Part shown: piece by piece, positions 27,470-45,337 of the stretch
Layout: each line of letters begins with the position of its first letter
How positions within the stretch are numbered: position 1 is the stretch's first letter
Assembly (NCBI GenBank): GCA_030425425.1
Contig: JAUIAO010000008.1
Location: 1-64,000 of the forward strand
DNA from: Bacteroidia bacterium
Lineage (GTDB): Bacteria; Bacteroidota; Bacteroidia; Cytophagales; Cyclobacteriaceae
DNA length: 64,000 nt
Direction of reading: 5' to 3'
The notes under the pieces: model-generated
Told to the model about the DNA's origin: nothing
Database searches by the model: none
What the model saw: only the letters and a program-made list of their open reading frames with translations
Translations under genes and position numbers: made by a program

Positions 27470-27721
27470 ATGGAACCAAACTTTACAGAGGCGCTTACCC
27501 TTCTCGGAATCGGGATGATCACTGTTTTTTTAGTCTTGATGCTAGTTGTTGCTACAGGTAACATACTCATCTCATTTGTTAATAGGTATGCAAAGGATGT
27601 GGTGGTAACACCTGCTAAATCTGAGAATATACCTACTGGTGAGTTGGTGGCAATTACGGCAGCAGTAGAAGCCTTCACCCTTGGAAAAGGAAGAATTACG
27701 AAAATCGAAAAGAAAAACTAA
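27470..27721 (+). CDS. oadG: Na+-translocating decarboxylase gamma subunit (OadG family)
   Basis: The ATG at 27470 gives an 83-residue protein with one N-terminal TM helix (about residues 8-32, LTLLGIGMITVFLVLMLVV) and a short cytoplasmic tail. This is the standard size and shape of the gamma subunit, which holds the alpha and beta subunits together. A TTG 24 bp upstream is possible but adds residues not typical of the family. The alpha subunit starts 7 bp downstream and beta follows, so the pump is encoded in the order gamma-alpha-beta. Confidence 0.85.
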   Translation: MEPNFTEALTLLGIGMITVFLVLMLVVATGNILISFVNRYAKDVVVTPAKSENIPTGELVAITAAVEAFTLGKGRITKIEKKN

Positions 27722-27728
27722 CAATATT

Positions 27729-29624: not shown

Positions 29625-29628
29625 TACC

Positions 29629-30825
29629 TTGGAACTATTTGAAAAGCTATACAGGATGACGGCCATCCAGGATATTGTGGATGCGCCTCAGACCTTGTTG
29701 ATGATACTCATCGCTTTTTTCCTGCTCTATCTGGGGATCAAAAAGCAATACGAGCCTTTGCTACTCGTGCCGATTGCTTTCGGGATGTTGATTGCCAACT
29801 TCCCAGGTGGCCAGATGGGTGTGGAAAAAATCAATGCCGAGGAGCTCAATTTTTATCAGATTGCGCATGAGCATGGCATCATGAATTTCATCTACTATTC
29901 ATTGATCAAAACAGGCTTCCTTCCTCCGATCATTTTTATGGGTGTGGGAGCGTTGACTGATTTTGGACCAATGTTGCGAAATCTCAGACTGGCGTTTTTC
30001 GGGGCGGCAGCACAGATCGGGATTTTTACCGTTTTGATTTCTGCTGTGGCTATGGGCTTCACCATGAAGGAAGCCGCTTCTCTTGGAATCATTGGAGGTG
30101 CAGATGGCCCCACGGCGATCTATACCACGATCAAGTTGGCTCCACATTTACTGGGACCAATCGCGATAGCGGCTTATTCTTATATGGCTCTGGTGCCGGT
30201 GATCATACCTTTAGTGGTGCGGTTTACCATGTCAAAAAAAGAATTGCTGATCAATATGAAGCAGCAGGACAAGCTTTATCCTTCTAAGAAGGAAATCAAG
30301 GATTTGAAAACGCTCAAAATCATCTTCCCTATCGGAGTAGGAACGATCGTGGCGTTGTTAGTGCCGTCTTCTGTACCTCTGATCGGGATGTTGCTTTTTG
30401 GTAATTTGGTAAAGGAAATCGGAGCCAGTACTTCCAGATTGTTCAAGGCAGCTTCAGATACGATTCTGAATGCAGCGACTATTTTCCTTGGATTGGCTGT
30501 GGGTGGTACCATGACAGCCAAGGCATTCCTGAATACTGAAACCATTATGATTATAGTGGGGGGATTTATTGCTTTCGCTATTTCGATCGCTGGTGGAATC
30601 TTTGCAGTGAAAGTTTATAACTTATTTGCAAAGAAGAAAATCAACCCGCTCATCGGAGCGACTGGTTTGAGTGCAGTACCGATGGCCTCTCGTGTGGCCA
30701 ATGACATTGCACTGCAGCACGATCCTAACAATCACCTTTTGCAATATGCCATGGCCAGTAACATCTCAGGTGTGATTGGTTCGGCTGTAGCGGCAGGGGT
30801 ATTGATTAGCTTCCTTGCAGGGTAG
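29629..30825 (+). CDS. oadB: Na+-translocating decarboxylase beta subunit (OadB family)
   Basis: This 398-residue polytopic membrane protein decarboxylates carboxybiotin and pumps Na+. Family motifs are GVGALTDFGPMLRN, GIIGGADGPTAIYTT (with the Na+-binding Asp region) and the C-terminal NISGVIGSAVAAGVL. The frame opens with TTG, 4 bp after the oadA stop; the first in-frame ATG is at 29656 and would shorten the N-terminus by nine residues. Both are possible, and coupling to oadA favours TTG. A terminator follows. Confidence 0.92.
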   Translation: MELFEKLYRMTAIQDIVDAPQTLLMILIAFFLLYLGIKKQYEPLLLVPIAFGMLIANFPGGQMGVEKINAEELNFYQIAHEHGIMNFIYYSLIKTGFLPPIIFMGVGALTDFGPMLRNLRLAFFGAAAQIGIFTVLISAVAMGFTMKEAASLGIIGGADGPTAIYTTIKLAPHLLGPIAIAAYSYMALVPVIIPLVVRFTMSKKELLINMKQQDKLYPSKKEIKDLKTLKIIFPIGVGTIVALLVPSSVPLIGMLLFGNLVKEIGASTSRLFKAASDTILNAATIFLGLAVGGTMTAKAFLNTETIMIIVGGFIAFAISIAGGIFAVKVYNLFAKKKINPLIGATGLSAVPMASRVANDIALQHDPNNHLLQYAMASNISGVIGSAVAAGVLISFLAG

Positions 30826-32317: not shown

Positions 32318-32522
32318 TAATCGAGGCGACAGAATCTGTTGAGCTGGTTATTCTGCTTGAACAACCAACTCGGTATTCCCAGAATCCGCAGTTGCTTTTC
32401 GACAGACTAGTTGAAGTTCTGAATAAATAGTTCACGGCAGGTTATTTAACCTTTTTTTATACAAAAATCGCTTGTTTAAGGTAATGGCTTTACATCAAAA
32501 GTGGATTTACTATCTTTATCCT

Positions 32523-32726
32523 ATGACAATTGAACAAAAGAAAATATCATTGATCAACTGGATCACAAATCTGGAGGATGAAATTGTTCTTGATCAAATT
32601 GCTGACCTTCAGAAACTCTCTCTTAATGAGCTACCTGATGCAATAGTTGAATTATTGAAAATGGCTGATGCAGAATCTGAGGGTAATCTGACTGTTCATA
32701 CTTCTGTCCGAGACATGTTGAAATGA
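32523..32726 (+). CDS. Probable antitoxin of a RelE/ParE-type module
   Basis: The ATG at 32523 gives 67 residues, MTIEQKKISLINWITNLED onward, a small helical acidic protein. A longer start at 32472 is unlikely because it adds unrelated residues. The last codons overlap the toxin start by 4 bp (ATGA), the usual arrangement for antitoxin then toxin. Antitoxins of this family in Bacteroidota are short, poorly conserved helical proteins, so the call rests mainly on the partner. Confidence 0.72.
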   Translation: MTIEQKKISLINWITNLEDEIVLDQIADLQKLSLNELPDAIVELLKMADAESEGNLTVHTSVRDMLK

Positions 32727-33037
32727 AAGAAGTTCGCTGGACTGAGACGGCTAAAATTACCCTTCAAGAAACATCAGATTTTATACTTGAAGTATGGAAT
32801 AGTCAGATAAACGAGAATTTTTTAGATCAATTTGAATATCGAATCAAACAACTCCAGCACAATCCTGAACTGGGACCAATTTATGAGAACTCACATTATC
32901 GAAAGTTGATAATTCAAAAGACTGTTTCGCTTTTCTACGTTAACAAGCCAGATTTTATCAAACTTCTTCTGATTTGGGATAATAGGTGTGATCCAGACAA
33001 ACTCTTAAATAAATTGTTAAATGCAAACATCGAATAA
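32723..33037 (+). CDS. RelE/ParE-family toxin
   Basis: This 104-residue protein begins MKEVRWTETAKITLQETSDF and continues through NFLDQFEYRIKQLQHNPELG, the pattern of ParE/RelE toxins (W/S-x-x-A...L...F...L..NP.LG), with the typical C-terminal strands (YRKLIIQKTVSLFYVNK, LLLIWDNRCDPDKL). It would block translation (RelE type) or DNA gyrase (ParE type); which one cannot be told by eye. It is translationally coupled to the antitoxin and convergent with the cytochrome operon. Confidence 0.85.
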   Translation: MKEVRWTETAKITLQETSDFILEVWNSQINENFLDQFEYRIKQLQHNPELGPIYENSHYRKLIIQKTVSLFYVNKPDFIKLLLIWDNRCDPDKLLNKLLNANIE

Positions 33038-33088: not shown

Positions 33089-33115
33089 AAAAAACGCGAA
33101 TCTCTCCGCGGTTTT
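33089..33115 (-). terminator. Intrinsic terminator of the multiheme cytochrome operon
   Basis: On the minus strand an AAAAC-CGCG arm pairs with CGCG-TTTTTT around a GAGAGATT loop (33115-33089), with one bulged C. The T-run is five to six long and begins about 30 bp after the ccsBA stop codon. The stem is short, so confidence is moderate. Confidence 0.6.
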
Positions 33116-33127
33116 AAACTTTGTTAT

Positions 33128-36100
33128 CTACATTTTGAATTTCTTCTTCTTCACCCAGGCGAAGAAGCTGATCACCATCAGAGCGGCCACAGATACATAG
33201 ACCCAAGAAGGGATCGGCACAGGGTCGCCAGCCGCGTAGGAGTGCAGACCAGACAGGTAATAGTTTACGCCGAAGTAGGTCATGATCACAGTCGCCAGCC
33301 CGAAAAGTGATGCCAGGTTGAAGTTGTAAAGGCTGTTGAGTTTAGGGATGATGCGCATATGTAGAATGAATGCATATACGAGTATGGTCACGAGTGCCCA
33401 TGTTTCTTTCGCATCCCAGCCCCAGTATCGTCCCCATGATTCGTTGGCCCAGACACCACCGAGATACGTTCCCACACTCACCATCACCAGACCACCTATC
33501 AAGGTCATTTCGCTGATGTGTGTCATCTCTGTGATGATGCGCTTCACGCGTGATTTATTGCTCTCTGTAAGTGAGGAAAAGAGTAGTAAGTTGATCAGAC
33601 CTATGATAGCTCCAAGCATCAGGAATCCATAACTACCGGCTTCCAAAGACACATGAATTGTCAACCAATAGGATCTTAATACAGGCACTAATGGCGTGAT
33701 TTCAGGATCGAGGAAACTTAGCATTGATACTCCCAGTAGTGTGGCTCCCAGTATCATGGTAGCTGCGAGACCACCGAGTGATCTCCTTGTGAAAATAACC
33801 CCCGCCAACACACTCGTGTAGGCAATGTAGATCATGGACTCATAGCCATTACTCCATGGTGCTCTACCAGATACGTACCATCTCAGTCCTAGTCCCAAAG
33901 TATGCGCTGCAAACCCTAGCATCACAAATACGAAAAGAATGTAATAAGGATACTTCAGGCTCAGATTTGGTTTGAATACAGAAATGAATAAAAGCACCAG
34001 AAAAATCATTCCCAGAAGGGCGTAGTACCAGCTTAGGTGATTGAAAACATGCGTATTGTTGAGCCAAATCTCGGCATTCACCTTTGCTTCTGATGGCATA
34101 ATGTCACCAGATTGCTTTTGTTGCATACCCACCAGGCCATCCAAAACCTGATTGGCCAATGAATAATCATTGGTGACTATACCATGTCCGAGCGCCTTTT
34201 TGTATCCATCAAAAAACTGCTCAGCACGCTCCTCAAAACCAGGAAATTCATGCGTATGCATCGCAGAAACCCATGAATTATTTTCATCACCAGGTACTGG
34301 TAATATCTTGAATATACTTCCCGAAAACACCATGCCCATGATGTTGATTCGCTCGTCTAGTTTGATCAGATCTTTTTCGAACATACCACGATCAGCAGAT
34401 TCCAACTGATTGGCATTCTGTACCATTTCGGTCAGTTTATAAGAGCCATCCATATTGAAAGCATCTTTATAGGCAATTCGCTTTCCGCTCGTACCCAGGA
34501 TGCTATGAAGCCTTTCACTTTTCCCAATTTTAATCAGTTTAGTCCCAAACCAATCTCCCGGTTTTGCATATAGGCTTAGGACTACCTGGTCGGCAGTCAT
34601 TCCTTCATACGATTCCTTGCCATAGACCTTGCGCATCACTTCACGTGTCATGGTGTGCAGAGGCTTCATTCTTCCACGCACATCCTGTACGATCACCTTG
34701 CTGAATTTATTTGCATGGGCCTCTGAAACAGCCGCATGAGTTTGGGTGATTTTCTCTTGACTAAATGCCACACTTGAGATCATCAATAAAGTGATTACAG
34801 ACGCGGAATTGAGGAAAGTCCTGTTTTTATTGACCATTTTGCTCAGCTGTGTGAACCGAGTGTCTTTACTTACAAATACCAGCACCATACCGATGGTGAG
34901 CAGTATATAACCTATGTAAGAAACCCACGTTCCCCAGAAATCATGATTTACGCTGAGGTATGTTCCCAGTTCATCACGATCAAATGACGACTGGAAGAAT
35001 CGATAGCCTCTATAGTCAAGAATGTGATTCATGTAAATTCTGTAGTCCATACTCACACCATTTTCCGGGTCTTCCAGATGTACTTCACTGGCATAGGACG
35101 CAGCGCTGTTTGTTCCCGGGTAGCGCTCCATGATGAAATCATACAGACTTACCGTAAATGGCACCTGAATCTCTTTGGCTCCATATGCGATGGAAAGCTG
35201 TAGGTCAGAAGTACCAACTTCTACTGGCTGCCCTGACATACCGCCATATCCACTCACGAACGCTTCTTTTGCTTCTCCATCTACGGTCACCTGCATTCGT
35301 AAGGCGATCATGCTGTTCCCTTGTACTTTTTGGTTTTCACTTCTTACGGCGGTGCTTCCTTTCGGATCGAAGCTGAGGAGGACGAAACGACTGTGATCAT
35401 TCGTGTAAAGAGCTCTCAGCGCAAGAGGGTTACGAGATCCCGGCATCAGTGTATCTAGCTGCTGAGTAGCCATAGTCATTCTGGTAGTTGGTTCTGCTAC
35501 TTCCATGGTCAGTTCTTCATTTTCCCAGAAAATATTCACCGCATGATCAGCTATCGTATTGGTGAAGTTGAAGAAGGTACCACCAATCATCTTTTGCTGG
35601 CCAAGTTGTATGAAGTATTCTTCCCGGCCATTGGCTCCAGCCAAAACAAGCTTCAAAAGTGGCTTTCCGTTTTCCTGATCAGAAGTCATTTCCTGAACTG
35701 GATTCGGAATGAAATCCAGTAATTTCACTTTTACCAAATGGTCACCCACTAGATATGATTCTTCAAAATCATTGGATCCAAGCGAGGCAAAAAGCACTTC
35801 CTCTTCAAACTGGTACTTGCCTTCTGAGGTAGTGGCATTGAATATCAAGTAGTTTTTAGAAGACAAAAATGAGTTCGCAGAGCTTCCCTCACGAATGTGC
35901 ATGATGCCTTCATAGCTATAATACCGCGTGATAGCTGCACCGAGGAGTATCACAATGATGGCCGCATGAAACATGAGCAGAGCCCATCGCTTATTCTTAA
36001 TCATGCGAAACTTGAAAATGTTGTAAATGATCGACGCTCCAAACAGTGCCAATAGTAATTCAAACCACCAGGCTTGATAGACTACTTTCTGCGCTGCGCT

Positions 36101-36223
36101 GGTGCCAAAATCATTTTCTATAAAAGTGGCTGCTCCTATGGCGAATGCGAATAGGAGTAGGTAAAATCCCGCCGCACGTGTGTTTACTAATCTTTTTAAG
36201 AGTTTTTCTGGATTGAATGCCAT
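33128..36223 (-). CDS. ccsBA: Fused cytochrome c synthase CcsBA (ResB-CcsA, system II)
   Basis: The ATG at 36223 gives 1031 residues and leaves 16 bp after the upstream lipoprotein gene; the longer frame from 36295 would overlap that gene by 56 bp. The N-terminal ResB/CcsB half has four TM helices and a large periplasmic domain. The C-terminal CcsA half has the heme-handling WWD motif (about residues 925-944, WGRYWGWDAKETW) and conserved His residues between TM helices. The protein carries heme across the inner membrane and attaches it to CxxCH. It is the last gene of an eight-gene run containing 55 CxxCH motifs, so it is probably the dedicated maturation enzyme for these cytochromes. Confidence 0.93.
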   Translation of the reverse strand: MAFNPEKLLKRLVNTRAAGFYLLLFAFAIGAATFIENDFGTSAAQKVVYQAWWFELLLALFGASIIYNIFKFRMIKNKRWALLMFHAAIIVILLGAAITRYYSYEGIMHIREGSSANSFLSSKNYLIFNATTSEGKYQFEEEVLFASLGSNDFEESYLVGDHLVKVKLLDFIPNPVQEMTSDQENGKPLLKLVLAGANGREEYFIQLGQQKMIGGTFFNFTNTIADHAVNIFWENEELTMEVAEPTTRMTMATQQLDTLMPGSRNPLALRALYTNDHSRFVLLSFDPKGSTAVRSENQKVQGNSMIALRMQVTVDGEAKEAFVSGYGGMSGQPVEVGTSDLQLSIAYGAKEIQVPFTVSLYDFIMERYPGTNSAASYASEVHLEDPENGVSMDYRIYMNHILDYRGYRFFQSSFDRDELGTYLSVNHDFWGTWVSYIGYILLTIGMVLVFVSKDTRFTQLSKMVNKNRTFLNSASVITLLMISSVAFSQEKITQTHAAVSEAHANKFSKVIVQDVRGRMKPLHTMTREVMRKVYGKESYEGMTADQVVLSLYAKPGDWFGTKLIKIGKSERLHSILGTSGKRIAYKDAFNMDGSYKLTEMVQNANQLESADRGMFEKDLIKLDERINIMGMVFSGSIFKILPVPGDENNSWVSAMHTHEFPGFEERAEQFFDGYKKALGHGIVTNDYSLANQVLDGLVGMQQKQSGDIMPSEAKVNAEIWLNNTHVFNHLSWYYALLGMIFLVLLFISVFKPNLSLKYPYYILFVFVMLGFAAHTLGLGLRWYVSGRAPWSNGYESMIYIAYTSVLAGVIFTRRSLGGLAATMILGATLLGVSMLSFLDPEITPLVPVLRSYWLTIHVSLEAGSYGFLMLGAIIGLINLLLFSSLTESNKSRVKRIITEMTHISEMTLIGGLVMVSVGTYLGGVWANESWGRYWGWDAKETWALVTILVYAFILHMRIIPKLNSLYNFNLASLFGLATVIMTYFGVNYYLSGLHSYAAGDPVPIPSWVYVSVAALMVISFFAWVKKKKFKM

Positions 36224-36239
36224 TTCTGCTGTTCCTCTG

Positions 36240-37007
36240 TTATTGTATAATCCTGCAATTTTCGAGAATAATTTCGTATTTATAGCCAGCGCCAAAGTCT
36301 TTATTGACTGCCAGTGTTCCCATCATGGTGACGGTATGACCTTCCGGTATCATTTGATCTGTGGTCAACACAAAGTCGTAATCCGTATCACTGTTGTCTT
36401 TGAGGTGCACCCAATTACGTTGCATGATGTTCGGGTTGATTTTGGTACAGGTACCAGTCACTTGTACTTCCTTGCCAGCATATGATGAAGGGTTTTTTAC
36501 CAGTTCGGCGATGGGCACAGATCCTGTGGCAAGCTTCACGTCACCTATTTCAGTGTTATTTTTGGCGGTAGTCGCTTGCTTGCCAGACTGCTGGCTGGCG
36601 TGATTAGATGCGACCAGATTGTTGACCAAATACATCTGATCAAAAACTCTATTATATTCCTTGCTTTCAAAATTGGTCTTGAGCAATCCATTTTTATAAA
36701 AGTATATTCCACCAATTTCGATATCCATCAGAGCGGTAGCGATCCAGTATTCCTGATTGGTTTTGAGGTTTTTCACCCGCAGATAGACATATTTTGAGGT
36801 GGGCAATTGTTCTATGACCACCACCTGATTTACTGAGGTTACGGCTCCTTCAGTGCCGTGCATTTCTATAGGTTCTTTGAGCTTGTCAAATTTGAAGTTT
36901 GTTTTTTCCTCCGTAGTACTGCTTTCTGTTTGATCGACCACTTTCGGTCTGTTGCAGCTAGTCATCATTATGGCCACAGCCAAGATTAAGAATTGTAATT
37001 TATACAT
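36240..37007 (-). CDS. Lipoprotein with two OB-fold-like halves (NrfJ-like)
   Basis: This 255-residue lipoprotein has signal MYKLQFLILAVAIMMTSC (lipid Cys18). The first half (about 55-130; YVYLRVKNLKTNQEYWIAT, FESKEYNRVFDQMYLV) resembles the small NrfJ-type OB proteins, and the second half (about 165-255; YAGKEVQVTGTCTKINPNIM, RNWVHLKD) is a related OB domain. NrfJ is known from the Wolinella nrfHAIJ operon, where NrfI is a CcsBA-type synthase. The same pairing occurs here, 16 bp upstream of ccsBA. A role as periplasmic helper in heme attachment or cytochrome handling is inference. Confidence 0.65.
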   Translation of the reverse strand: MYKLQFLILAVAIMMTSCNRPKVVDQTESSTTEEKTNFKFDKLKEPIEMHGTEGAVTSVNQVVVIEQLPTSKYVYLRVKNLKTNQEYWIATALMDIEIGGIYFYKNGLLKTNFESKEYNRVFDQMYLVNNLVASNHASQQSGKQATTAKNNTEIGDVKLATGSVPIAELVKNPSSYAGKEVQVTGTCTKINPNIMQRNWVHLKDNSDTDYDFVLTTDQMIPEGHTVTMMGTLAVNKDFGAGYKYEIILENCRIIQ

Positions 37008-37034
37008 GAGTGATTGAAGGTTTCTGTATGCGAA

Positions 37035-38630
37035 TTAATTGCCAAATCTTTTAATTACCTGAAGGTTTACCCGATAATTTTGATCAAACTCGTTGAATGA
37101 ATATTCACCAAGAACACCAAGGCTGAGCTTATCGTTCAACCGATAATTTACTTTACTTCCAAAATAATGATGAGCCGTAAGCTGACCTTCAAAACCAATA
37201 GATGTGTATCTAACCAATCTATAATAGGTGTAGGTTCTGAGCTTTTTCTGAAAGAAATTATTTCTGTAGCTGGCAGATGCAGATTCACTGCTCACGCTTC
37301 TGCCATCGTTTCTATTGTAGTATACACTGACACTTCCAGGTACGAATGGTAATTTATTGATCGTTACGTTTCCTCCCATGCTGGCAAAGTTGGCCTGATC
37401 CCGATTCCGCGAATTGTAATTGAGACCAAGGAAAATATTCTTGTTGAGTCGATAATTTACACGTGTCCGCCAGCCGGTGGTCACATAGTCGTTTAGTAGC
37501 AACCTTTCAATGTCCAGCTGGTAGGATTCATAATAGATCACCCTTTTTCTTTGGTCATAAGATACCATAAAAGAAAGCGCACTATTCAAACGGTACCTGG
37601 CACTTGCGAAAAGATTGGTGAGTCGCGCCCCGGTTTTCAAAGAATCTATGTTCCCATTGTAGAGGTCCAGTTCAGACGAAACGAAAAGGCTGAGTTTCCG
37701 AAACAATGTGCTTTGGTGCTGTAGATAAGTATATTGTCGATCGATATTACCTCGGTTTCTTTGATCGATAATTCCAATAGTAGAAGTAGTCTGAATGGTT
37801 TTTCTGTTTCCTAGTGATATGGCTGTAAAAGCTCCCAGCTGACCTTGATCTGTGTTTAAGCCAAAATCATATAGGTCCGGTTTGAATCCGGCAATAGCAC
37901 CAACGGAGACTTTCCCAAATGATTTTTCTAGCTGAAGGCCATCAACCGGCCCAATACTGGACATATTTCTGTTGATACTTCTTCCCACTGAGGCTTTGAA
38001 CAACTTAGGGTTATCATAATTCAGAGCCAGATTATACACACGCACACGATTGTCAGAGGTAGTTTGTAAGCCTTGCTGAAAGATCTGATTAATATATAAA
38101 TAAGATTCAAATGAAAAGTCTGAACCCTGAATATGATCTATATCCAGTCTTGCTCGTTCCATGATTCGGTGTGTTGATGAATTGTTGTTTGCACCGAAAG
38201 TGCTGTAACTAGCCGCTGATAGCCTTCCCGAAACTCGTTGCTGGTCACGAAGATTAACTTTTACCTTTTCAGGAATGTCCTTTTCTTCATTCTGTTCGAT
38301 AGACTGCTCGTCCGTTTCTTCCGGTGTTACTTCTTGCACCGTGCGGAAGTATAAAACCTTCTGACCTTTGGAGACGGAGACACCAGATAAAGCTTCGCAT
38401 ACGAGCGACAGAGAGGATTTAGCTGTCACGATGAGCAGAGGGGTGTTTTGATCGCTGAGGTATAGAGTGTCACCTATCGAAACCTCAGAAGCACCATCAA
38501 TCTTCACATAGATGTTCTGCGAGGTAACAAACGATATTGTTCCCTCCGTGGATTGGCTTTGCCCGAAAACTGGACTATTCATAAGGATTCCAATCCAACC
38601 AATTATCGCTATTAGATTATTCTTTTTCAT
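37035..38630 (-). CDS. Outer-membrane beta-barrel protein of the cytochrome operon
   Basis: The ATG at 38630 gives 531 residues; its A is the last base of the upstream gene's TGA (TGATG). A signal peptide (1-24, VFGQ) is followed by a small N-terminal beta domain (about 25-100, SH3-like), an acidic linker (about 100-125), and about 400 residues of alternating amphipathic strands (for example RVRVYNLALNYDNPKLFKAS, GWRTRVNYRLNKNIFLGLNY) ending in VNLQVIKRFGN. No homology to MtrB-type porins can be claimed by eye. Its place directly after three multiheme cytochromes makes it a candidate sheath that lets electrons or a substrate cross the outer membrane. Confidence 0.72.
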   Translation of the reverse strand: MKKNNLIAIIGWIGILMNSPVFGQSQSTEGTISFVTSQNIYVKIDGASEVSIGDTLYLSDQNTPLLIVTAKSSLSLVCEALSGVSVSKGQKVLYFRTVQEVTPEETDEQSIEQNEEKDIPEKVKVNLRDQQRVSGRLSAASYSTFGANNNSSTHRIMERARLDIDHIQGSDFSFESYLYINQIFQQGLQTTSDNRVRVYNLALNYDNPKLFKASVGRSINRNMSSIGPVDGLQLEKSFGKVSVGAIAGFKPDLYDFGLNTDQGQLGAFTAISLGNRKTIQTTSTIGIIDQRNRGNIDRQYTYLQHQSTLFRKLSLFVSSELDLYNGNIDSLKTGARLTNLFASARYRLNSALSFMVSYDQRKRVIYYESYQLDIERLLLNDYVTTGWRTRVNYRLNKNIFLGLNYNSRNRDQANFASMGGNVTINKLPFVPGSVSVYYNRNDGRSVSSESASASYRNNFFQKKLRTYTYYRLVRYTSIGFEGQLTAHHYFGSKVNYRLNDKLSLGVLGEYSFNEFDQNYRVNLQVIKRFGN

Positions 38631-40330
38631 CAATCATCTCCGTCTGGGTGACAAGCAAAGCAGGCGTTGCTTTCATATACATAATTTCTTCTGCCTCGGT
38701 GTTCATCGTCCATTTTTGATTGTCTATGCTCATGGCAGTCTATACAGCTGAAAGTATCATATGTCTGATCTACATGGCATTCATAGCAGCTGTTCCATTC
38801 GCCGCGGTGGTTTCCTCTGTAAATCGGGAAATATTGACTGTCATGATCCCTGAAGCTTGCTGGTGTCCAGCCTGAGCTAGTGCTATGGCAAGAGGCACAA
38901 TCGGTATTAAACCCGGAAGATGAATGGTTTGGATCTGAGGTTTGATTGTAATCATCGATATGGCACGAAACACATTCGCTGCTGGCATCAGCATATGAGC
39001 CGGTATTGTGGCATTCGGTGCATGATGAGATATTATGAACCCCTGTCAGTGGAAACTGAGTATGCAATGATGAAGGGAAATCGGCAGGCATCCATCCCGG
39101 ATTGGTAGTATGACAATTAATACAATCTGTGCCGATATTTACTTCTGTATGGTTAGGGTTGGTCGTATTGAGATAGTCTGTCTGGTGACACGTGCTACAC
39201 TCGTTACTAATGGCGGTATATTCTCCAGAAGTGTGACACTCTGTGCATGTGCTGATGTCATGACCTAGTGTCAGAGGAAAACTACTGTGAAACTCACCAT
39301 CACCACCAAGAGTAGATTTCCATCCTATATCCGTGGTATGACAATCTGTACAACTAGTCCCAAAATTGGCTCGAAGATGATCAGGGTTCTCTGTTCTATT
39401 GAAATCCTCAACATGGCAGGAAATACACTCCGAAGAAATATCTGAATAGTCGTTGGTGTTGTGACATTCTGCACAATCCTGGATATTGTGACCTCCGGTA
39501 AGAGGGAAAAAGTCATGAAATATCTCGCCGCCCATAGTAGTCGGGCTCCATCCTGGTAATGTACTGTGACAACTCGCGCAATTCATGTCGAAATTGGCTG
39601 CCTGATGGTTTGGGTTGATAGTGTTATTATAATCTTTCAGGTGACAATCCACGCATTCTGAGGAGAGGCCTTCATAGGTTCCTGGAGTGTGGCATTCGTT
39701 GCAATCTGCAATATCATGCCCCTGAGTCAAAGGAAAAAAGTCATGGAACAGACCTCCGGGTGACCAAACTTCAGTAGTAGGTAAATGACATTCTATGCAT
39801 TCAGTAGAGAATCCTGATTCGATGTGGTTTGGCTCTGTGGTTGCCTGAAAATCAGCCATATGGCAATCTGCACATTCTCCACCCACTCTGTTCCATTGCA
39901 AGGTGTTTTGCGAAGTGTGGCATTCTGCGCATGAAATCTGATCATGTACCCCAAAGAGCGGGAAGCCGTTTTGTTCATGCAGTTCTGGAATGATATCTAC
40001 GAGCCATGTTTCCGTAGTGTGACATCTGATACAATCATTGCCTACTGTCATGCTGTGTACATCTGTATGGCAAGATGCACATTGATTGGGTGCCGCAGAA
40101 AAAACCAGCGTTTCGTGGCAACTGATACAGCTGGTCTCGCTATGCTGGCCATCTAATATAAAACCAGTAGTATCGTGTTGGAACCCTGTGTTTCTAAAAT
40201 CAACTTCCCAACTCTCAGAAGTATGACATGAATTGCAATCAGCTTTAAATGAATCTCCATGAGGGTTTTGGGCCTGCAATGCCATATTGGCAAAAAGTTG
40301 AATCAATATATAAACCTTAAAATATTTCAT
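38630..40330 (-). CDS. 22-heme c-type cytochrome with amplified three-heme modules
   Basis: This 566-residue exported protein (signal 1-20, LQAQ) has 22 CxxCH motifs. After an N-terminal four-heme part (to residue 104), five modules of 75-76 residues start at Cys134, 210, 286, 362 and 437. Each holds three hemes in the order CxECH, CxxCH followed by a DYNxTxNPNH-type stretch, and CxxCHTTxxGW, then FFPLTxGH. A three-heme cap follows (HRGEWNSC, CHEHRQSKMDDEHRG, CHPDGDD). It lies 6 bp after the 13-heme paralogue gene and overlaps the barrel gene by one base. It is probably periplasmic or surface-exposed and moves electrons along a heme wire. Confidence 0.9.
   Translation of the reverse strand: MKYFKVYILIQLFANMALQAQNPHGDSFKADCNSCHTSESWEVDFRNTGFQHDTTGFILDGQHSETSCISCHETLVFSAAPNQCASCHTDVHSMTVGNDCIRCHTTETWLVDIIPELHEQNGFPLFGVHDQISCAECHTSQNTLQWNRVGGECADCHMADFQATTEPNHIESGFSTECIECHLPTTEVWSPGGLFHDFFPLTQGHDIADCNECHTPGTYEGLSSECVDCHLKDYNNTINPNHQAANFDMNCASCHSTLPGWSPTTMGGEIFHDFFPLTGGHNIQDCAECHNTNDYSDISSECISCHVEDFNRTENPDHLRANFGTSCTDCHTTDIGWKSTLGGDGEFHSSFPLTLGHDISTCTECHTSGEYTAISNECSTCHQTDYLNTTNPNHTEVNIGTDCINCHTTNPGWMPADFPSSLHTQFPLTGVHNISSCTECHNTGSYADASSECVSCHIDDYNQTSDPNHSSSGFNTDCASCHSTSSGWTPASFRDHDSQYFPIYRGNHRGEWNSCYECHVDQTYDTFSCIDCHEHRQSKMDDEHRGRRNYVYESNACFACHPDGDD
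38789..39931 (-). repeat. Five tandem ~228-bp three-heme modules inside the 22-heme cytochrome gene
   Basis: Modules correspond to residues 134-209, 210-285, 286-361, 362-436 and 437-514. The neighbouring 13-heme gene has only two such modules (Cys133 and Cys208). The difference in length between the two proteins (225 residues) and in heme count (9) equals three modules exactly. Confidence 0.85.
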
Positions 40331-40336
40331 TGGCTT

Positions 40337-41362
40337 TTAATCATCCTCCTTTCCATCTGGGTGGCACGAATAGCAGGCATTGCTTTCATAAACATAGTTT
40401 CTTACTTCTCCTCGATGCTCATCATCCATCTTGGATTGGCGATGCTCATGACATTCCAGGCAGCTGAAAATACTATAATCAGACTCGGTCACATGACAGT
40501 CAAAGCAGCTATTCCATTCTCCTCTATGTTCTCCTGAGTAGATCGGGAAGAAATCCGAATCGTGTTGTCTAAAGCTTGCCGGACTCCAGCCTGGTGCTGT
40601 GGTATGGCAAAGCACGCAATCCGTATTGAACCCCGACGTTTGATGGTTGGGGTTGCTGGTGGAGTTGTATGCGTCCAGATGGCAGTTTACACAATCATCC
40701 GTAATCCCATCGAAAGTAGGAGAGATGTGACAATCAAAGCAATTGGCAATGTCATGGCCTTTCGTCAATGGAAAAAACTGATGGCTATTACCGCCGGACC
40801 ACTGATCTTCGGTAGGTAAATGACATGTGATACAATCTGTGTCAAAACCAGATTCTATGTGATTTGGATTGGTGGTTTGGTTGTAATCAGTCATGTGGCA
40901 TTCTATACATTCGCCACCTAGCCTGTTCCATTGCAAATTATTACCAGCCTCATGGCAATCTGTACAGGATATCAAATCATGGGCCCCAAAGAGCGGGAAA
41001 CCATTCTGCTCGTGCAATTCTGGAATATTATCTACTAGCCAGCTTTCTGTACTATGACATCTCATACAATCATCGCCTACAGTCATGGCATGCACATCTG
41101 TATGGCAAGAAGCACATGCCTGGCTAACCTCAGGAAATTCTAAAGTCTTGTGACAATCCATACAGCTGATAGACTGGTGCTGGCCAGTCAAAGAGAAGTT
41201 TGTAGTATCGTGATTGAACAATATGTCATCAACACTGACTTTCCATCCGTCAGGAGTATGGCAGGTATTGCAGTCCACTTTGAAACCCTCACCGTGGGGG
41301 TTTTGCGCATGCGCAAAAAGCATAGACGCCATGAGGCTTATTATGAGTGACAATCTATACAT
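40337..41362 (-). CDS. 13-heme c-type cytochrome
   Basis: This 341-residue exported protein (signal 1-19, AHAQ) has 13 CxxCH motifs, one per 26 residues. It is clearly paralogous to the 22-heme protein from end to end: the same QNPHG start of the mature protein, the same four-heme head, two three-heme modules (from Cys133 and Cys208) instead of five, and the same CHEHRQSKMDDEHRG ... CHPDG tail. The start overlaps the end of the 20-heme gene by 22 bp. The heme ligands besides CxxCH are probably the His in FxH and GxH motifs that precede several hemes. Confidence 0.9.
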   Translation of the reverse strand: MYRLSLIISLMASMLFAHAQNPHGEGFKVDCNTCHTPDGWKVSVDDILFNHDTTNFSLTGQHQSISCMDCHKTLEFPEVSQACASCHTDVHAMTVGDDCMRCHSTESWLVDNIPELHEQNGFPLFGAHDLISCTDCHEAGNNLQWNRLGGECIECHMTDYNQTTNPNHIESGFDTDCITCHLPTEDQWSGGNSHQFFPLTKGHDIANCFDCHISPTFDGITDDCVNCHLDAYNSTSNPNHQTSGFNTDCVLCHTTAPGWSPASFRQHDSDFFPIYSGEHRGEWNSCFDCHVTESDYSIFSCLECHEHRQSKMDDEHRGEVRNYVYESNACYSCHPDGKEDD

Positions 41363-42948
41363 GCGAATTGTTGAATTTTGTATTCTATCCTTTCCTGACC
41401 ATCAATGAAAGTAGGTTTATGGCACTCCTTGCAGTCTACTTTGGCATGTTCCCCATCCAGCGGAAATTCTGTATTGCTATGATCAAAGCTGTTCGCATTC
41501 CATTCCATAGCTGTAGTATGACAATTGGTACAGCTGAAAGAACCAACCGGACCAAATTGGTTACCATGGATATTTTCATGGCAGGTAGAACACTCGGTAT
41601 TGAGTCCATTAAACACCTGGCCAAAGTCTGCCAGCGATTCGTCTCTGAAGTGACATTCCCGACAGCTGATTTCCCCGTGCTTTCCTTCAAGAGGCCAATC
41701 CGTGTTATTATGATCAAAGTCTACTGAGGCCCAGCTTTCCGTATTATGACAAGAGGTACAGTCATTATCCGGATAAAATTTATCCGTGATTTTATCTCGA
41801 TGAATGTTTTCATGACAGTCCACACATGACTCACCAATACTTCTAAAATGCCATTTCTCATCTGCTTCATCTATATGACAGGCAAAACATGGAGTAGCCA
41901 TGTGAGCGCCTTCCAAGGCGAATCGAGAAGCATTGTGCTCTTCAAAACCGAAGAGGGTGTAATCAAATTTTTTCTCTAAAGTGTGACATTCCTTACAATC
42001 GGGAGATTGTCCATTTTCAATAAATTCTCCTTCATGATAATCTTCGTGACAGTCTTTGCATTCATTGAAACTTAGAGGATCTGTGTTGTTGCCAGTAGTA
42101 TGACATTCTTTACAGTCTACCTGTATATGCAGTCCCTCCAGCGGATAATTGGTTAGGTCGTGATTAAAATTTTCTGGAGCGGTGGTCAGTTTGAAACTGT
42201 TTTCATTGTGACAGTCCAGACAATTGAGGCCAAACTTTCCTTCATGCACATCGTCATGACAGTTGATACATTGTGAAAACTCCAGACCGGTAAACACCTG
42301 GAAGTCTTTGCCATTTCGCTGAGTCATTTCATGACATTCCTTGCAATCCACTTCATTGTGAGCACCTTTTAGTACAAAATTGGCATTATTATGATCGAAT
42401 TTTGGTGCAGGTCTCCATTCATCGAAACCATGGCATTCTATACAGTCGTTGGTGAGTGTTTCCTGATGGAAATCCTCATGACAACTCAGGCACTCCTCAT
42501 TCATCCCGAGGAATGTATTCTCGAGTTTACGGATTTCCGGATTCGCTATATTTTCTGATTGATGGCAATCACGGCACTCGATTACATGGTGCTGACCTTC
42601 CAGTTCATATCCGGTTAGTAAGTGGTCAAAGTTTTCTTGATCAAATTTGGTAGCATCAAATTCTTGTCCGTGATGTTCGCTATGACACTCTGCACAAGAT
42701 TTATTTTCTACTTCGACTGAAGCATGATATCCACGATTTTCATCTAATAAGAAAGAAATTTCCTGATGGCAATCCAGGCATTTCTGATTCACAATTTGTT
42801 TGCCCAGCGTATGGCATTCCGTACAATTCGAGATGCCTTCCAGATCACTATGCGCAGCGGATAATTTACCGGGAGACAATTGTCCAAAAACGCTCATCGA
42901 CCAAAGAATCGGGCTCAAAAGGGCGATATTTAATAGTAGCCGTTTCAA
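41341..42948 (-). CDS. 20-heme c-type cytochrome
   Basis: This 535-residue exported protein (signal 1-22, VFGQ) has 20 CxxCH motifs. Six times the pattern FxH-x2-(T/A)-x-aromatic-x-L-x-G-x-H precedes a CxxCH by about five residues (for example FDHNNTDWPLEGKH, FNHDLTNYPLEGLH); those His are good candidates for distal heme ligands. The same pattern occurs once near the start of each of the two smaller cytochromes. The start codon is TTG in a TTGA overlap with the upstream gene's stop; the next Met is inside the signal peptide, so TTG is likely real. It is the first cytochrome after the inner-membrane proteins, hence probably the first periplasmic acceptor. Confidence 0.9.
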   Translation of the reverse strand: MKRLLLNIALLSPILWSMSVFGQLSPGKLSAAHSDLEGISNCTECHTLGKQIVNQKCLDCHQEISFLLDENRGYHASVEVENKSCAECHSEHHGQEFDATKFDQENFDHLLTGYELEGQHHVIECRDCHQSENIANPEIRKLENTFLGMNEECLSCHEDFHQETLTNDCIECHGFDEWRPAPKFDHNNANFVLKGAHNEVDCKECHEMTQRNGKDFQVFTGLEFSQCINCHDDVHEGKFGLNCLDCHNENSFKLTTAPENFNHDLTNYPLEGLHIQVDCKECHTTGNNTDPLSFNECKDCHEDYHEGEFIENGQSPDCKECHTLEKKFDYTLFGFEEHNASRFALEGAHMATPCFACHIDEADEKWHFRSIGESCVDCHENIHRDKITDKFYPDNDCTSCHNTESWASVDFDHNNTDWPLEGKHGEISCRECHFRDESLADFGQVFNGLNTECSTCHENIHGNQFGPVGSFSCTNCHTTAMEWNANSFDHSNTEFPLDGEHAKVDCKECHKPTFIDGQERIEYKIQQFACIDCHS

Positions 42949-44285
42949 TGCTTTTTCATGATTTGACCAAAACGTTTCGTGATTGTCACGCCTGCATTTT
43001 CTAAAAATTTTGTCGGTAATTCTCCCCCGATGAAGATGTAAACCAAATCATTCTCAATACTCACCGCTTCTCCATTTTCCGCATTTACCTGAAGCTGGAT
43101 TTTGTCAGGCTCTATGCTGATCAGATTAGAATTGAAGAGCGGCTTCACATACCCCTTTTCAATTGCTTCATTGATTCTTTCCTGATTTTTGGGTTTGATC
43201 CGTGCAAACTTTTCTTTTCGATAACTGAGCGTGACTTCATTTTCCTCCATCAAAAGCATGGCCGATTCCACGGCAGAATCTCCACCGCCTACTACCATGA
43301 TTTTTTTACCGCTGATTCTCTCTGGTTCCAGTAGCTTGTATGCTACCTTTTCTGATTCTTCTCCTGGAATTCCCAGTTTTCTTGGGCTGCCTCTTCTTCC
43401 AATCGCAAGCAATACGTGGTTCGTTTGCCATTCTCTGCCATCGTTAGAGATCACTTTCAGACTATTGTCAACAAGTGGGGTGATCTTATCGACCTTCACA
43501 TGCTCCTCTATCTTTATTTCATTATTCGAAAGCGCCTCATTCCAGACTTTTAGCAGTTCAGATTTTGAAGTTTCATTGAATTTCACTTTTCCATAAAGTG
43601 GCAAATCCACCGGACGAGTCATCACTATTTTGGTTCTTGGAAAGTTAGAGACCGTTCCCCCAAGGCTATCCTGATCCAGCACTACCACATCCAGTCCATT
43701 TTTTTTGGCAGTAAGAGCACCTCCGATACCTGCAGGTCCAGCACCAATTATTACCAGGTCAGGTATTCCCTCAATCTTCTTTTTTGTGCTTTTGGCAATG
43801 TTTTCTACCGCTTGTTTTCCTTGCTCAATACTGTTTTTGATCAGTCCCATTCCTCCCAGTTCTCCAGCGATATAGATGCCACTGACGTTCGTTTCGTAAG
43901 TAGGCTTTACATGTGGTAGATCAACACCTCTGGTTGCTGTTCCTATTCTCAGTGTAATAGCCTCTACCGGACATGCATGAAAACACGCACCATGCCCTAT
44001 GCACGCACTGGCATTAATGGCGGTGGCTTTATCATCCACTATTCCCAGGATGTCTTGTTCCGGGCAAGCTTTGATGCAGGCTCCGCTACCGATACAGGTG
44101 TTGAGATCTATATGCGGATAAAGAGAAACTGGTTCAAACCGGCCTTCTGCCTTGGCAATGTTTACCTTTTGCTGGGTGAGCGAACTAGAGGATTTATTTT
44201 TTCTCAAATAGATCCAAACCACAATCAAACAAATGATTGCTACTATACCATAAATCAGTATTTCTTCTATCAGTAAGCCCATCAT
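42945..44285 (-). CDS. Membrane-anchored FAD/NAD(P) oxidoreductase with two variant ferredoxin motifs
   Basis: The ATG at 44285 gives 446 residues and overlaps the upstream stop as TGATG. It has one TM helix (about 7-27), a dicluster ferredoxin-like domain (58-115), then a thioredoxin-reductase-type fold with FAD loop GAGPAG (181-186) and NAD(P) loop GGGDS (333-337). Each ferredoxin motif lacks the second Cys: CIGSGAC-x3-CP (Cys64, Ser67, Cys70, Cys74) and CIGHGAC-x3-CP (Cys95, His98, Cys101, Cys105). The CxxC of thioredoxin reductase is absent. It would pass electrons between NAD(P)H and the membrane cytochrome b or the periplasmic cytochromes; direction is unknown. Confidence 0.85.
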   Translation of the reverse strand: MMGLLIEEILIYGIVAIICLIVVWIYLRKNKSSSSLTQQKVNIAKAEGRFEPVSLYPHIDLNTCIGSGACIKACPEQDILGIVDDKATAINASACIGHGACFHACPVEAITLRIGTATRGVDLPHVKPTYETNVSGIYIAGELGGMGLIKNSIEQGKQAVENIAKSTKKKIEGIPDLVIIGAGPAGIGGALTAKKNGLDVVVLDQDSLGGTVSNFPRTKIVMTRPVDLPLYGKVKFNETSKSELLKVWNEALSNNEIKIEEHVKVDKITPLVDNSLKVISNDGREWQTNHVLLAIGRRGSPRKLGIPGEESEKVAYKLLEPERISGKKIMVVGGGDSAVESAMLLMEENEVTLSYRKEKFARIKPKNQERINEAIEKGYVKPLFNSNLISIEPDKIQLQVNAENGEAVSIENDLVYIFIGGELPTKFLENAGVTITKRFGQIMKKH

Positions 44286-45127
44286 CAAAAAATCCAGGTA
44301 TAACCAAAAAGTAGAGTGACCACCACATGAATGACCACCACAATTAACATAATCAATGCGAAAGGCTTATGAGCTACATGCCAGTATTTAAAAAGCTTTT
44401 GCATACGATTGAGATTGGCTATTCGACTGCTTAGCGCAATTTCCGAACGCACCAAATTCATAACGGATCTTTGTTCTTTTTTGTCTGTGATCTGGGCATT
44501 GATCAATTTTTTCAATGACCTGATATATTTACCTTGTCTTCTTCTCGACTGTAGATACGATCCTTCCAGACAGGACTTATCGGCTAGTTCGTGGATGATT
44601 TGATCATTAGGCAGCTTGAGTGATTTGATTTTTTCAATGATCTTCTCTTGATTCGTTCGGATTTCTGTCAGACTCAGTTCACGACCTTCAATACTCCTGG
44701 GGATCTGGATATAAATGAACCTTCCGATAACACCACTCAAAACTACAGCCACCATGCTCCAGAAAGCAATTGATACTACTCCACCAAATTTGAAAGTAGT
44801 GTGAAACAGGATCAGGATTGGCCCGAGAGTGCAAAGAAAAATATGAAATTCCAGCAGGTATTTGAGCCTGATAACTCTGGTTAAAAAACCGTATTTCTTA
44901 GCAAGGGTATACATGACTACACCAATGGTAATCAATAACGTCCCAATAATTCCCAACCCGTGTCCAAATAGACCTGAAGGTTTGAACCAATCATATTGGG
45001 CGTGATAAAACCGTTCCTCAATGGGTGTTTTATAAAAGTCCATGCCCACATAGGAGATGTATGTCGTTACAAAAACTATTATGGATATCAGAACACCAAT
45101 GTAGGCTGTGTGAAATTTCTTAATCAT
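44285..45127 (-). CDS. Diheme cytochrome b-like membrane protein
   Basis: This 280-residue protein has TM helices near 8-28, 52-75, 90-112, 117-140 and 252-275, with a charged cytoplasmic loop (about 145-250). Two helices each carry HX13H: His95/His109 and His253/His267. That spacing is classical for two b hemes stacked across the membrane, each held by one His from each helix. The family could not be named, but a quinol-oxidising or quinone-reducing cytochrome b fits. It is the first gene of the eight-gene cytochrome operon. No convincing promoter was seen in the 210-bp gap upstream (45128-45337). Confidence 0.72.
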   Translation of the reverse strand: MIKKFHTAYIGVLISIIVFVTTYISYVGMDFYKTPIEERFYHAQYDWFKPSGLFGHGLGIIGTLLITIGVVMYTLAKKYGFLTRVIRLKYLLEFHIFLCTLGPILILFHTTFKFGGVVSIAFWSMVAVVLSGVIGRFIYIQIPRSIEGRELSLTEIRTNQEKIIEKIKSLKLPNDQIIHELADKSCLEGSYLQSRRRQGKYIRSLKKLINAQITDKKEQRSVMNLVRSEIALSSRIANLNRMQKLFKYWHVAHKPFALIMLIVVVIHVVVTLLFGYTWIF

Positions 45128-45260
45128 AAAAAATAGACCAGTCTGTGAGTCTTTTCGGACCCGACGAAAAAATGGTTGGTTGACTTCACAATTTATCTTG
45201 AATATTCTAAAAATAAACGTAAGGATTCGTTAAATCTGAGCGGTGAATCATGAATCACGT

Positions 45261-45285
45261 AAAAAGGTCAACGGCTGTCTGTTGA
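45261..45285 (-). terminator. Weak candidate terminator downstream of terC
   Basis: On the minus strand TCAAC (45285-45281) pairs with GTTGA (45272-45268) and is followed, after CC, by five T. The stem is only 5 bp with an 8-nt loop, so this is tentative. It would separate terC from the cytochrome operon. Confidence 0.3.
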
Positions 45286-45337
45286 AAATGGGATTTCAAT
45301 GATCTACCTATGGCCAACAGATTCATGATCATTTTGC

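Follow-up and report, generated by a model that had tools for sequence, protein, structure and literature searches.

What would be achieved by a run of bacterial genes that encodes, side by side, a cytochrome b, a flavoprotein, three multiheme cytochromes c and an outer-membrane barrel? Such a run lies within positions 1–64,000 (forward strand) of contig JAUIAO010000008.1, GenBank assembly GCA_030425425.1, from a Bacteroidia bacterium (Cytophagales; Cyclobacteriaceae); this whole stretch of 64,000 nucleotides is called the window here. An earlier, sequence-only reading had described an eight-gene multiheme electron-conduit operon with its own cytochrome c synthase, and all eight open reading frames (ORFs) are indeed found, tightly packed on the minus strand from 45127 to 33128 (Table 1). 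Our reading is that the operon encodes a quinone-independent trans-envelope conduit that carries electrons from reduced nicotinamide adenine dinucleotide phosphate (NADPH) to the extracellular side, to which we assign a probability of roughly 0.55.

In the proposed mechanism, cytoplasmic NADPH would reduce the flavin adenine dinucleotide (FAD) of a membrane-tethered flavoprotein, as its fold and a sequence motif suggest, and electrons would cross the iron-sulfur (Fe-S) clusters of this protein to two putative hemes b stacked across the inner membrane. They would then pass to the periplasmic 20-heme cytochrome and on to the modular 13- and 22-heme cytochromes, which may run through, or dock into, a 22-strand barrel to deliver electrons outside; CcsBA, by its family, would attach the hemes. 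The electrons probably end on a non-specific oxidant outside the cell (Fe(III) or Mn oxides, humics or partner cells) when oxygen is short. This oxygen-limited use is proposed because the genome also encodes two COX1 genes, for which reason the host is probably aerobic. We infer the direction, donor, localisation and acceptor of the conduit, and iron acquisition or the feeding of extracellular redox enzymes are possible alternative roles.

A conserved core across Bacteroidota

A profile of ten flavoproteins matched at least 592 stretches of GTDB contigs, at least 576 of them encoding relatives, and the best 80 were kept. Gene maps and counts cover 79 of these 80 loci, L026 being left out for want of an intact flavoprotein frame, and each neighbour is counted over the loci with room, that is, those long enough to show it. 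The cytochrome b gene stands upstream beside the flavoprotein gene in 71 of 74 loci (missing in L042, L043 and L082), and their junction is 30 bp or less in 69 of 76. In 71 of 73 loci (all but L028 and L077) the flavoprotein gene is followed by a multiheme gene, the gene of the 20/23-heme cytochrome overlaps that of the variable or "wire" cytochrome in 47 of 50, and in 37 of 41 (all but L015, L039, L054 and L081) a barrel gene comes after those of the cytochromes. These neighbour counts therefore delimit a conserved core of five genes: cytochrome b, flavoprotein, 20/23-heme cytochrome, variable cytochrome and barrel. Judged in the same way, the lipoprotein gene (22 of 35 loci) and the CcsBA gene (>45% identity; in view in 17 of 29 loci, on the same strand in 6 of 29) are frequent but optional companions. 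CcsBA is a cytochrome c synthase by family, as had been proposed; as the operon's "own" it is only loosely tied to the system. Other CcsBA-like genes occur close to the core upstream of cytochrome b in L084 (34% identity) and at the left end of L015 (31%). When the surrounding genes were clustered, nothing pointed to a function: the clusters that recur are response regulators and other general families, in at most 10 loci.

The kept loci belong to Bacteroidota wherever the title names a group, with Flavobacteriaceae, Saprospiraceae and Bacteroidales among others. Named carriers among these best 80 include Lutibacter oceani, Yeosuana marina, Phaeodactylibacter xiamenensis, Aequorivita antarctica, Ulvibacter antarcticus, Hanstruepera marina and Arenibacter sp. 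The sequence-only reading had called for a synteny search and would have fallen with an absence of synteny in relatives; the conserved core is found. Its Cytophagales setting proves too narrow, the core recurring across Bacteroidota, and a Cytophagales-specific system was dropped with the finding of relatives in many other groups of the phylum.

Among sampled genomes, the flavoprotein occurs in 9 of 395 from the window's class, including its own (E ≤ 1e-40), in 8 of 295 from its family, again including its own (two of these, G016 and G612, matched in part only), and in 38 of 395 from the phylum (E ≤ 1e-100). Among the phylum matches, an upper tier of 22 reaches about 1e-205 or better, and a lower tier of 16 lies between about 1e-154 and about 1e-118. 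For 11 of the 16 members of the lower tier the surrounding stretches were read, with the window proteins as the only queries: cytochrome b and the 20/23-heme cytochrome were each recognised in 9 of 11, another multiheme cytochrome in 11 of 11 and the barrel in 5 of 11, with an unlabelled ORF of barrel size (536–543 residues) at its place in 3 more. In all 11 the flavoprotein gene comes after the cytochromes instead of second, and one lower-tier locus, L117, has an additional 12-heme gene after it.

The inner-membrane module

The earlier assignment of a diheme cytochrome b is supported by two conserved His pairs. In a family alignment of 73 members, His95, His109, His250 and His267 are present in 73 of 73 and His253 in 72 of 73; the pairs His95/His109 and His253/His267 are each 14 residues apart on two transmembrane helices, and twin H-x13-H pairs also occur in 9 of 9 distant cytochromes b. 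Two hemes stacked between two helices on His pairs are the arrangement of bc1 and NADPH oxidase, and the cytochrome b is probably diheme, with its hemes stacked across the inner membrane. No Pfam family matched it at E ≤ 0.01, and the two PDB matches of its profile (E 0.13 and 0.23) were taken as chance.

The flavoprotein had been read as an FAD/Fe-S oxidoreductase, and the Pfam matches Pyr_redox_3 and Fer4_10 agree. It consists of an N-terminal hydrophobic helix with positive residues after it, an Fe-S domain and a YpdA/thioredoxin reductase-like domain that binds two nucleotides. Its best PDB relatives in a profile search are the bacillithiol reductases Bdr/YpdA, and its structure model matches 7a7b in Foldseek (E 7e-22), VIA giving Z 22.5 (261 residues aligned, root-mean-square deviation (rmsd) 3.9). 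The fold is shared with YpdA/Bdr, and the score against NCBIfam TIGR04018, 158.7 bits, stays below the cut-off of 339.9. Conservation was read from alignment A5, which holds 69 of the 80 kept rows (11 omitted for brevity), the window protein and L002, 71 in all, with residues numbered from the second ORF codon. The GGGDS sequence is invariant (71/71), and the motif Y-R-x-x-x-F-x-R-x-K keeps R356 in 70 and R362 and K364 in 71 of 71. The rule HRRxxxR marks NADPH preference, and by this rule we take R356, R362 and K364 to be the site of the NADPH 2'-phosphate.

The Fe-S domain carries C-x5-C-x3-CP twice. In the first motif the usual second Cys is replaced by Ser67 (58/71) or Thr67 (13/71), and in the second by His98 in all 71, giving C-x2-H-x2-C-x3-CP at residues 95–105, which suggests a His-ligated or three-Cys cluster. 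Distant flavoproteins keep this His in 11 of 11 and have the usual second Cys in the first motif in 10 of 11. The window protein has only 7 Cys: the six cluster Cys and C19 in the anchor, the only other one conserved in most members (62/71). A thioredoxin reductase-type CxxC is absent among them, and a role as a disulfide reductase of that type was therefore ruled out.

The nucleotide-binding domain is probably a circularly permuted Bdr/YpdA-like fold, with the C-terminal strand and helix moved to the N side. The profile aligns flavoprotein residues 178–443 to Bdr 4–271 and stops near residue 270 of about 326 in Bdr, at the end of the flavoprotein; the missing Bdr-like element, with its TNxxGIYIAG signature, seems to be placed before the domain. 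There residues 130–147 align to Bdr 277–294 (3.7 bits, not significant alone), and the model shows a strand at 137–140 and a helix at 146–164. When this element was moved to the end, Bdr 7a7b, at 74.7 bits before, scored 84.2 bits, and the match extended to residue 308 instead of 270; 7a76 gained only slightly (78.0 to 79.1), the ferredoxin-NADP reductases 5ygq and 3lzw rose from 38.5 to 44.2 and from 45.0 to 49.6, and the thioredoxin reductases 3f8p and 2q7v lost slightly. A permuted six-row profile reached residue 294 of 7a7b and 275 of 7a76. No relevant literature on a permuted thioredoxin-reductase flavoprotein was found, as judged by title.

Does the module take its electrons from NADPH or from the quinone pool? 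An outward conduit could instead be fed by menaquinol at cytochrome b, the flavoprotein only balancing NAD(P)H or bifurcating. The known entry proteins CymA, CbcL and ImcH are quinol oxidases or quinone reductases (PMC6295460), and the cytochrome b family shows weak similarity, at E ≤ 0.1, to DUF4405 in 42 of 73 members and to the Ni-hydrogenase cytochrome b in 6 of 73. Menaquinol entry leaves unaccounted for a flavoprotein that has a hydrophobic anchor and so regularly adjoins cytochrome b, and the near-tier maps hold no extra multiheme entry-protein gene between cytochrome b and the cytochromes. We regard it as a serious contender that is nonetheless unlikely. None of the eight proteins has a Pfam match to NapC/NirT at E ≤ 0.01, and the NrfH model scores 19–21 bits against a cut-off of 134.2.

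The same chain might also run inward, an external donor reducing NADP+. Such pathways can run both ways (PMC8258643). Against this direction, Pfam shows no energy-coupling subunit among the eight proteins. NADP+ is of such low potential that Fe(II)-like donors could not drive its reduction without coupling, and we consider inward flow improbable.

Multiheme cytochromes and the modular wire

The CxxCH counts of 20, 13 and 22 reported earlier were confirmed, 1000 shuffles of each protein giving means below 0.3 and a maximum of 3. All three cytochromes are of the C7/c3 type in Pfam and have ordinary signal peptides. The 13- and 22-heme cytochromes are paralogues; their genes share two direct DNA repeats, one of 216 nt at 76% identity and one of 125 nt at 74%. 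Heme spacings in the wire cytochromes repeat as 34–35, 16 and 25 residues, a three-heme module of 76 residues that is mirrored in a 228-bp spacing of the DNA repeats. Of the 51 locus-complete wire cytochromes that carry 10 or more motifs, 45 fit the series 13+3k, ranging from 13 to 82; the other six have 12, 15, 21, 21, 29 and 42. By this pattern, the variable cytochrome grows by a three-heme, 76-residue module. Three further wire cytochromes that run to the locus end (L038 with 90 motifs, L090 with 78 and L079 with 72) stand outside this count. L035 encodes a single-chain cytochrome with 82 CxxCH, and the cytochromes of L038 and L090 may be cut at the locus end. The 20/23-heme slot is more uniform: 40 of 73 members have 23 motifs, 25 have 20, and the remaining 8, several of them at locus ends or split, have 11–17.

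In 144 of 145 cytochromes of these slots there are at least two His per CxxCH, the exception being a cut fragment of 6 motifs; every heme can therefore be bis-His ligated, which fits electron transfer along a wire over catalysis. A periplasmic reductase for a soluble substrate has in its favour a weak, below-cut-off similarity of the cytochromes to hidden Markov models (HMMs) of DmsE, NrfH and ExtN/ExtO (42.3 bits against a cut-off of 200 for both ExtN and ExtO NCBIfam equivalogs). That His count tells against it, as does the lack of a catalytic subunit among the eight genes, and we give a reductase very little credence. The OmcA/MtrC subfamily model scores 18.8 bits against a cut-off of 209.3, the 20-heme protein reaches 22.9 bits against 30 for the Pfam MtrC/MtrF domain II/IV, and neither the 20- nor the 22-heme cytochrome, searched singly, matched a PDB sequence at E ≤ 0.01.

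The cytochromes could also form a periplasmic electron store, the barrel being an ordinary transporter. A capacitor-like role has been speculated for very large multihemes, mostly of Saprospiraceae (PMC11495043); the window's cytochromes are without a lipobox, and the barrel resembles substrate porins. A store would not explain why the barrel follows the cytochromes so consistently, and a range of 13–82 motifs would be hard to fit into a fixed periplasm; this sixfold variation in length is more easily explained for a part that reaches outside. Storage therefore seems to us a rather unlikely function. Among the loci, a crude lipobox pattern occurred in 4 of 54 wire cytochromes, in two as the first heme Cys and in two with the usual signal peptide, and these were not taken as lipoproteins.

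The outer-membrane barrel

The outer-membrane barrel of the sequence-only reading is backed by an AlphaFold2 model built from 37 sequences (mean predicted local distance difference test (pLDDT) score 82), with an N-terminal beta domain and 22 strands, as counted from the listing, between residues 132 and 530; no Pfam family matched at E ≤ 0.01. TonB receptors also have 22 strands and hold a plug domain inside, and by analogy a barrel of this size could hold a slim cytochrome. Models of MtrB/PioB are contained in both the Pfam and NCBIfam libraries; they are absent among the matches of the window's barrel in either (E ≤ 0.01) and among the 12 Pfam families matched by the 37 barrels at E ≤ 0.1. 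MtrB is also not among the 50 matches shown for either barrel structure search, an absence that carries no evidence. In the window, as in the 37 loci counted above, the barrel gene lies beside multiheme genes, the gene-level mark of a porin-cytochrome conduit. As none of the window's three cytochromes shows a lipobox, the operon yielded no surface lipoprotein of the MtrC type.

Observations that weigh against the proposed conduit

Several observations pull away from an NADPH-fed conduit to the outside. The NADPH preference is inferred from the HRRxxxR rule. The usual CxxCxxCxxxCP pattern is altered in both Fe-S motifs, so two working clusters are an assumption, and the flavoprotein model is weak in this part (pLDDT mostly 40–58). 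A quinone site in cytochrome b is possible, and CbcL and ImcH are set apart here by their descriptions. Nothing points to exposure at the cell surface: by eye, the window's three cytochromes have neither a lipobox nor a C-terminal sorting domain. Some likeness to known surface cytochromes does exist, the 22-heme protein scoring 52 bits against a Pfam MtrC/MtrF domain II/IV cut-off of 30, although this match may reflect shared heme motifs. The nearest structures shown for the barrel are OprD/OccK porins (Z 18.8, 281 residues aligned, rmsd 4.5), TonB receptors and ushers. Several of the named hosts are aerobic marine heterotrophs, and none of these is known to respire metals.

Operon layout and neighbouring genes

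Table 1. Coordinates of the operon and its flanking signals in the window, with the evidence for each feature.
Feature	Position	Strand	Evidence
Cytochrome b, 280 residues, five hydrophobic segments, probably diheme	44285..45127	-	ORF, family His conservation, transmembrane segments
Membrane-anchored NAD(P)H-type FAD oxidoreductase with Fer4, 447 residues	42945..44288	-	Pfam, PDB profile, structure matches, Cys/His pattern
20-heme c-type cytochrome, signal peptide (20/23-heme slot)	41341..42948	-	20 CxxCH, C7/c3 Pfam
13-heme c-type cytochrome, paralogous to the 22-heme protein	40337..41362	-	13 CxxCH, DNA repeats
22-heme c-type cytochrome of three-heme, 76-residue modules (wire slot)	38630..40330	-	22 CxxCH, spacings
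Outer-membrane barrel, 22 modelled strands, N-terminal beta domain	37035..38633	-	AlphaFold2 model
Lipoprotein with possible OB fold, 255 residues	36240..37007	-	Cys18 kept 25/25; sub-cut-off tRNA_anti-like match
CcsBA cytochrome c synthase, likely start ATG 36223	33128..36223	-	ResB and Cytochrom_C_asm
Terminator-like hairpin and T run after CcsBA	33095..33110	-	Consensus scan
210-bp upstream gap, presumed promoter region, no clear motif	45128..45337	-	Motif scan

By longest ORF, the junctions from CcsBA back to cytochrome b measure -56, 27, -4, 6, -22, -4 and -4 bp. The five overlaps (of seven junctions) and gaps of at most 27 bp noted earlier hold on this measure, the two gaps being 6 and 27 bp; the -56 junction is doubtful because CcsBA has a better ATG, 24 codons inside its ORF and behind a purine-rich stretch, and with this more likely start the 56-bp overlap would become a 16-bp gap. 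The layout supports the claim that the eight genes form one transcription unit, and the proposed order from inner to outer membrane likewise. The hairpin is a consensus match only, from a scan that found 15 against a shuffled mean of 9.4. In the upstream gap of the window neither the Bacteroidota -33/-7 promoter motif (consensus form) nor an FNR- or CRP-like palindrome was found; the upstream regions of 70 relatives contain the -7 part in 23 cases and the full motif in none (0.3 expected by shuffling).

Both the ResB and Cytochrom_C_asm domains of CcsBA score above their Pfam cut-offs, the domain pair expected of system II, and its NCBIfam CcsB equivalog score lies just under the cut-off (169 against 187.6). 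A second CcsBA, 39% identical, is encoded elsewhere in the genome, which holds 7 C7-type multiheme matches, one of them in the window. For the OB-fold lipoprotein of the sequence-only reading, the lipoprotein part is upheld by the invariant Cys18, whereas the OB fold is a sub-threshold Pfam match (18.7 bits against 23.5).

Directly adjoining the operon end is a ParE-type toxin gene (32472–33037, plus strand; PF05016, 26.0 bits against a cut-off of 23), overlapped upstream by a small ORF that has no Pfam match and is probably its antitoxin. Farther past the operon end, 27681–30825 (plus strand) encodes a biotin-type carboxylase subunit and the beta subunit of a Na+-transporting oxaloacetate decarboxylase.

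Apparent horizontal spread

The flavoprotein was found in none of five congeners (E ≤ 1e-40). The gene upstream of the operon, TerC, is present in two of the five, where it adjoins an ORF of 153 residues followed by the oxaloacetate decarboxylase beta gene in one and by a short-chain dehydrogenase/reductase (SDR) gene in the other; in both, no operon lies between the TerC side and these flanking genes, which marks an empty site. The genes at 27681–30825 are thus the conserved flank of this site in one congener, and the ParE-type gene was not seen between the flanking genes in either.

In the flavoprotein tree the seven copies from the window's family are scattered, with at least 4 changes required; the approximately unbiased (AU) test rejects a single clade (p 2.4e-5). 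A first tree had been rooted on L115_far, which has a very long branch and may be the wrong protein, and was rebuilt without it; L021, identical to L095 of a family genome, was dropped, G016 (L101; matched over 174–438 only) was not used, and G612 (L100; 203–448 only) was kept. Title-named loci could not be matched to family codes, and in a second test the comparison rows were therefore restricted to the 36 assigned by title to another family, giving 4 changes and p 6.6e-5, with two family copies among Saprospiraceae and four among Flavobacteriaceae. The window copy falls next to Saprospiraceae at 86% in the Shimodaira–Hasegawa-like approximate likelihood-ratio test (SH-aLRT), a branch that is not starred; all these trees were built quickly and carry no bootstraps. 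The simplest account is repeated horizontal transfer, since this tree would not readily arise from losses alone. A tandem pair of flavoprotein copies in a Maribacter metagenome-assembled genome (L063, 8438–11329) is placed in different Flavobacteriaceae branches. The fullest version of our proposal, a phylum-wide, horizontally moving exporter that would lead electrons from NADPH, bypassing quinones, first through a permuted flavoprotein whose Fe-S motif contains a His, then through a diheme cytochrome b and into a single-chain wire that lengthens by three-heme bricks, is held tentatively, as somewhat short of an even bet.

Implications

If this proposal is true, electron export would be a common but little-recognised trait of Bacteroidota, one that enters the envelope cytochromes independently of quinones and that would give ordinary marine members, not known as electroactive, a bacterial electrical analogue of NADPH oxidase. 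Biological conduction could be studied on the wire cytochromes, which would form a natural series of single-chain heme wires of differing length (13–82 motifs). Named, presumably culturable strains carry the operon, which makes it directly testable.

Comparison with known systems

Earlier papers already contain putative conduits from Bacteroidota. A survey of porin-cytochrome systems in six phyla names Ignavibacterium, and the word Bacteroidetes does not occur in the available part of its text (PMC4245776); anode communities have conduits in Ignavibacteria and others (PMC7399161), putative novel conduits were reported in "a number of Bacteroidetes" from a humic lake (PMC6344600), and an anode Bacteroidetes cluster of seven genes, six multihemes and a barrel, differs in composition as described (PMC8258643). 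Five CbcL-type quinol entry proteins and one ImcH homologue are recorded in Bacteroidetes (PMC6295460), and the available text of the MHCscan survey contains no Bacteroid- word (PMC11475568). The very-many-heme cytochromes of Bacteroidota, mostly giant proteins of Saprospiraceae in activated sludge, have similarly high CxxCH numbers and may include the wire slot; they differ in being described, in the accessible portion of that paper, without an operon, modules or an inner-membrane partner (PMC11495043). In the open-licence literature, mostly judged by title and start of abstract, no publication was recognised as describing the gene set of this operon.

With MtrCAB, PioAB and MtoAB the operon shares a barrel and multiheme c-type cytochromes in one operon, an inner-to-outer logic and, for MtrCAB, the domain II/IV match of the 22-heme cytochrome. 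It differs in a barrel without an MtrB/PioB name among its HMM matches and with 22 modelled strands instead of the 26–28 of Mtr, in its 20, 13 and 22 motifs in place of a decaheme MtrA and a lipid-anchored decaheme MtrC, and in an NAD(P)H-type flavoprotein with a diheme cytochrome b where MtrCAB has CymA. The Geobacter Pcc (OmbB-OmaB-OmcB) and Ext systems likewise pair barrels with multiheme cytochromes, and ExtN/ExtO are weakly like the 20-heme cytochrome; they differ in gene set and in heme numbers, which are 8 and 12 in Pcc (PMC4245776), and the flavoprotein module is a feature of the present operon. CbcL, ImcH and CymA also feed envelope cytochromes, and CbcL has a diheme b domain (PMC6295460), but by their descriptions they act on quinol or quinone, in contrast to the tethered NAD(P)H-type flavoprotein beside cytochrome b.

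YpdA/Bdr and the thioredoxin reductases share the two-domain FAD/NADPH fold with the flavoprotein at about 20–30% identity; they are without its membrane anchor and Fe-S domain, and it differs from them further in having no CxxC and, apparently, its C-terminal strand and helix on the N side. In eukaryotic NADPH oxidases and ferric reductases, electrons pass from cytosolic NADPH through FAD to two hemes b stacked across the membrane on His pairs. The layout proposed here is the same, although no such family is matched in Pfam and the electrons would leave to multiheme c cytochromes. The operon is real, conserved, widespread and apparently mobile; it is probably of the porin-cytochrome kind and is set apart from these systems by its NADPH-type flavoprotein and diheme b module and by its brick-built wire.

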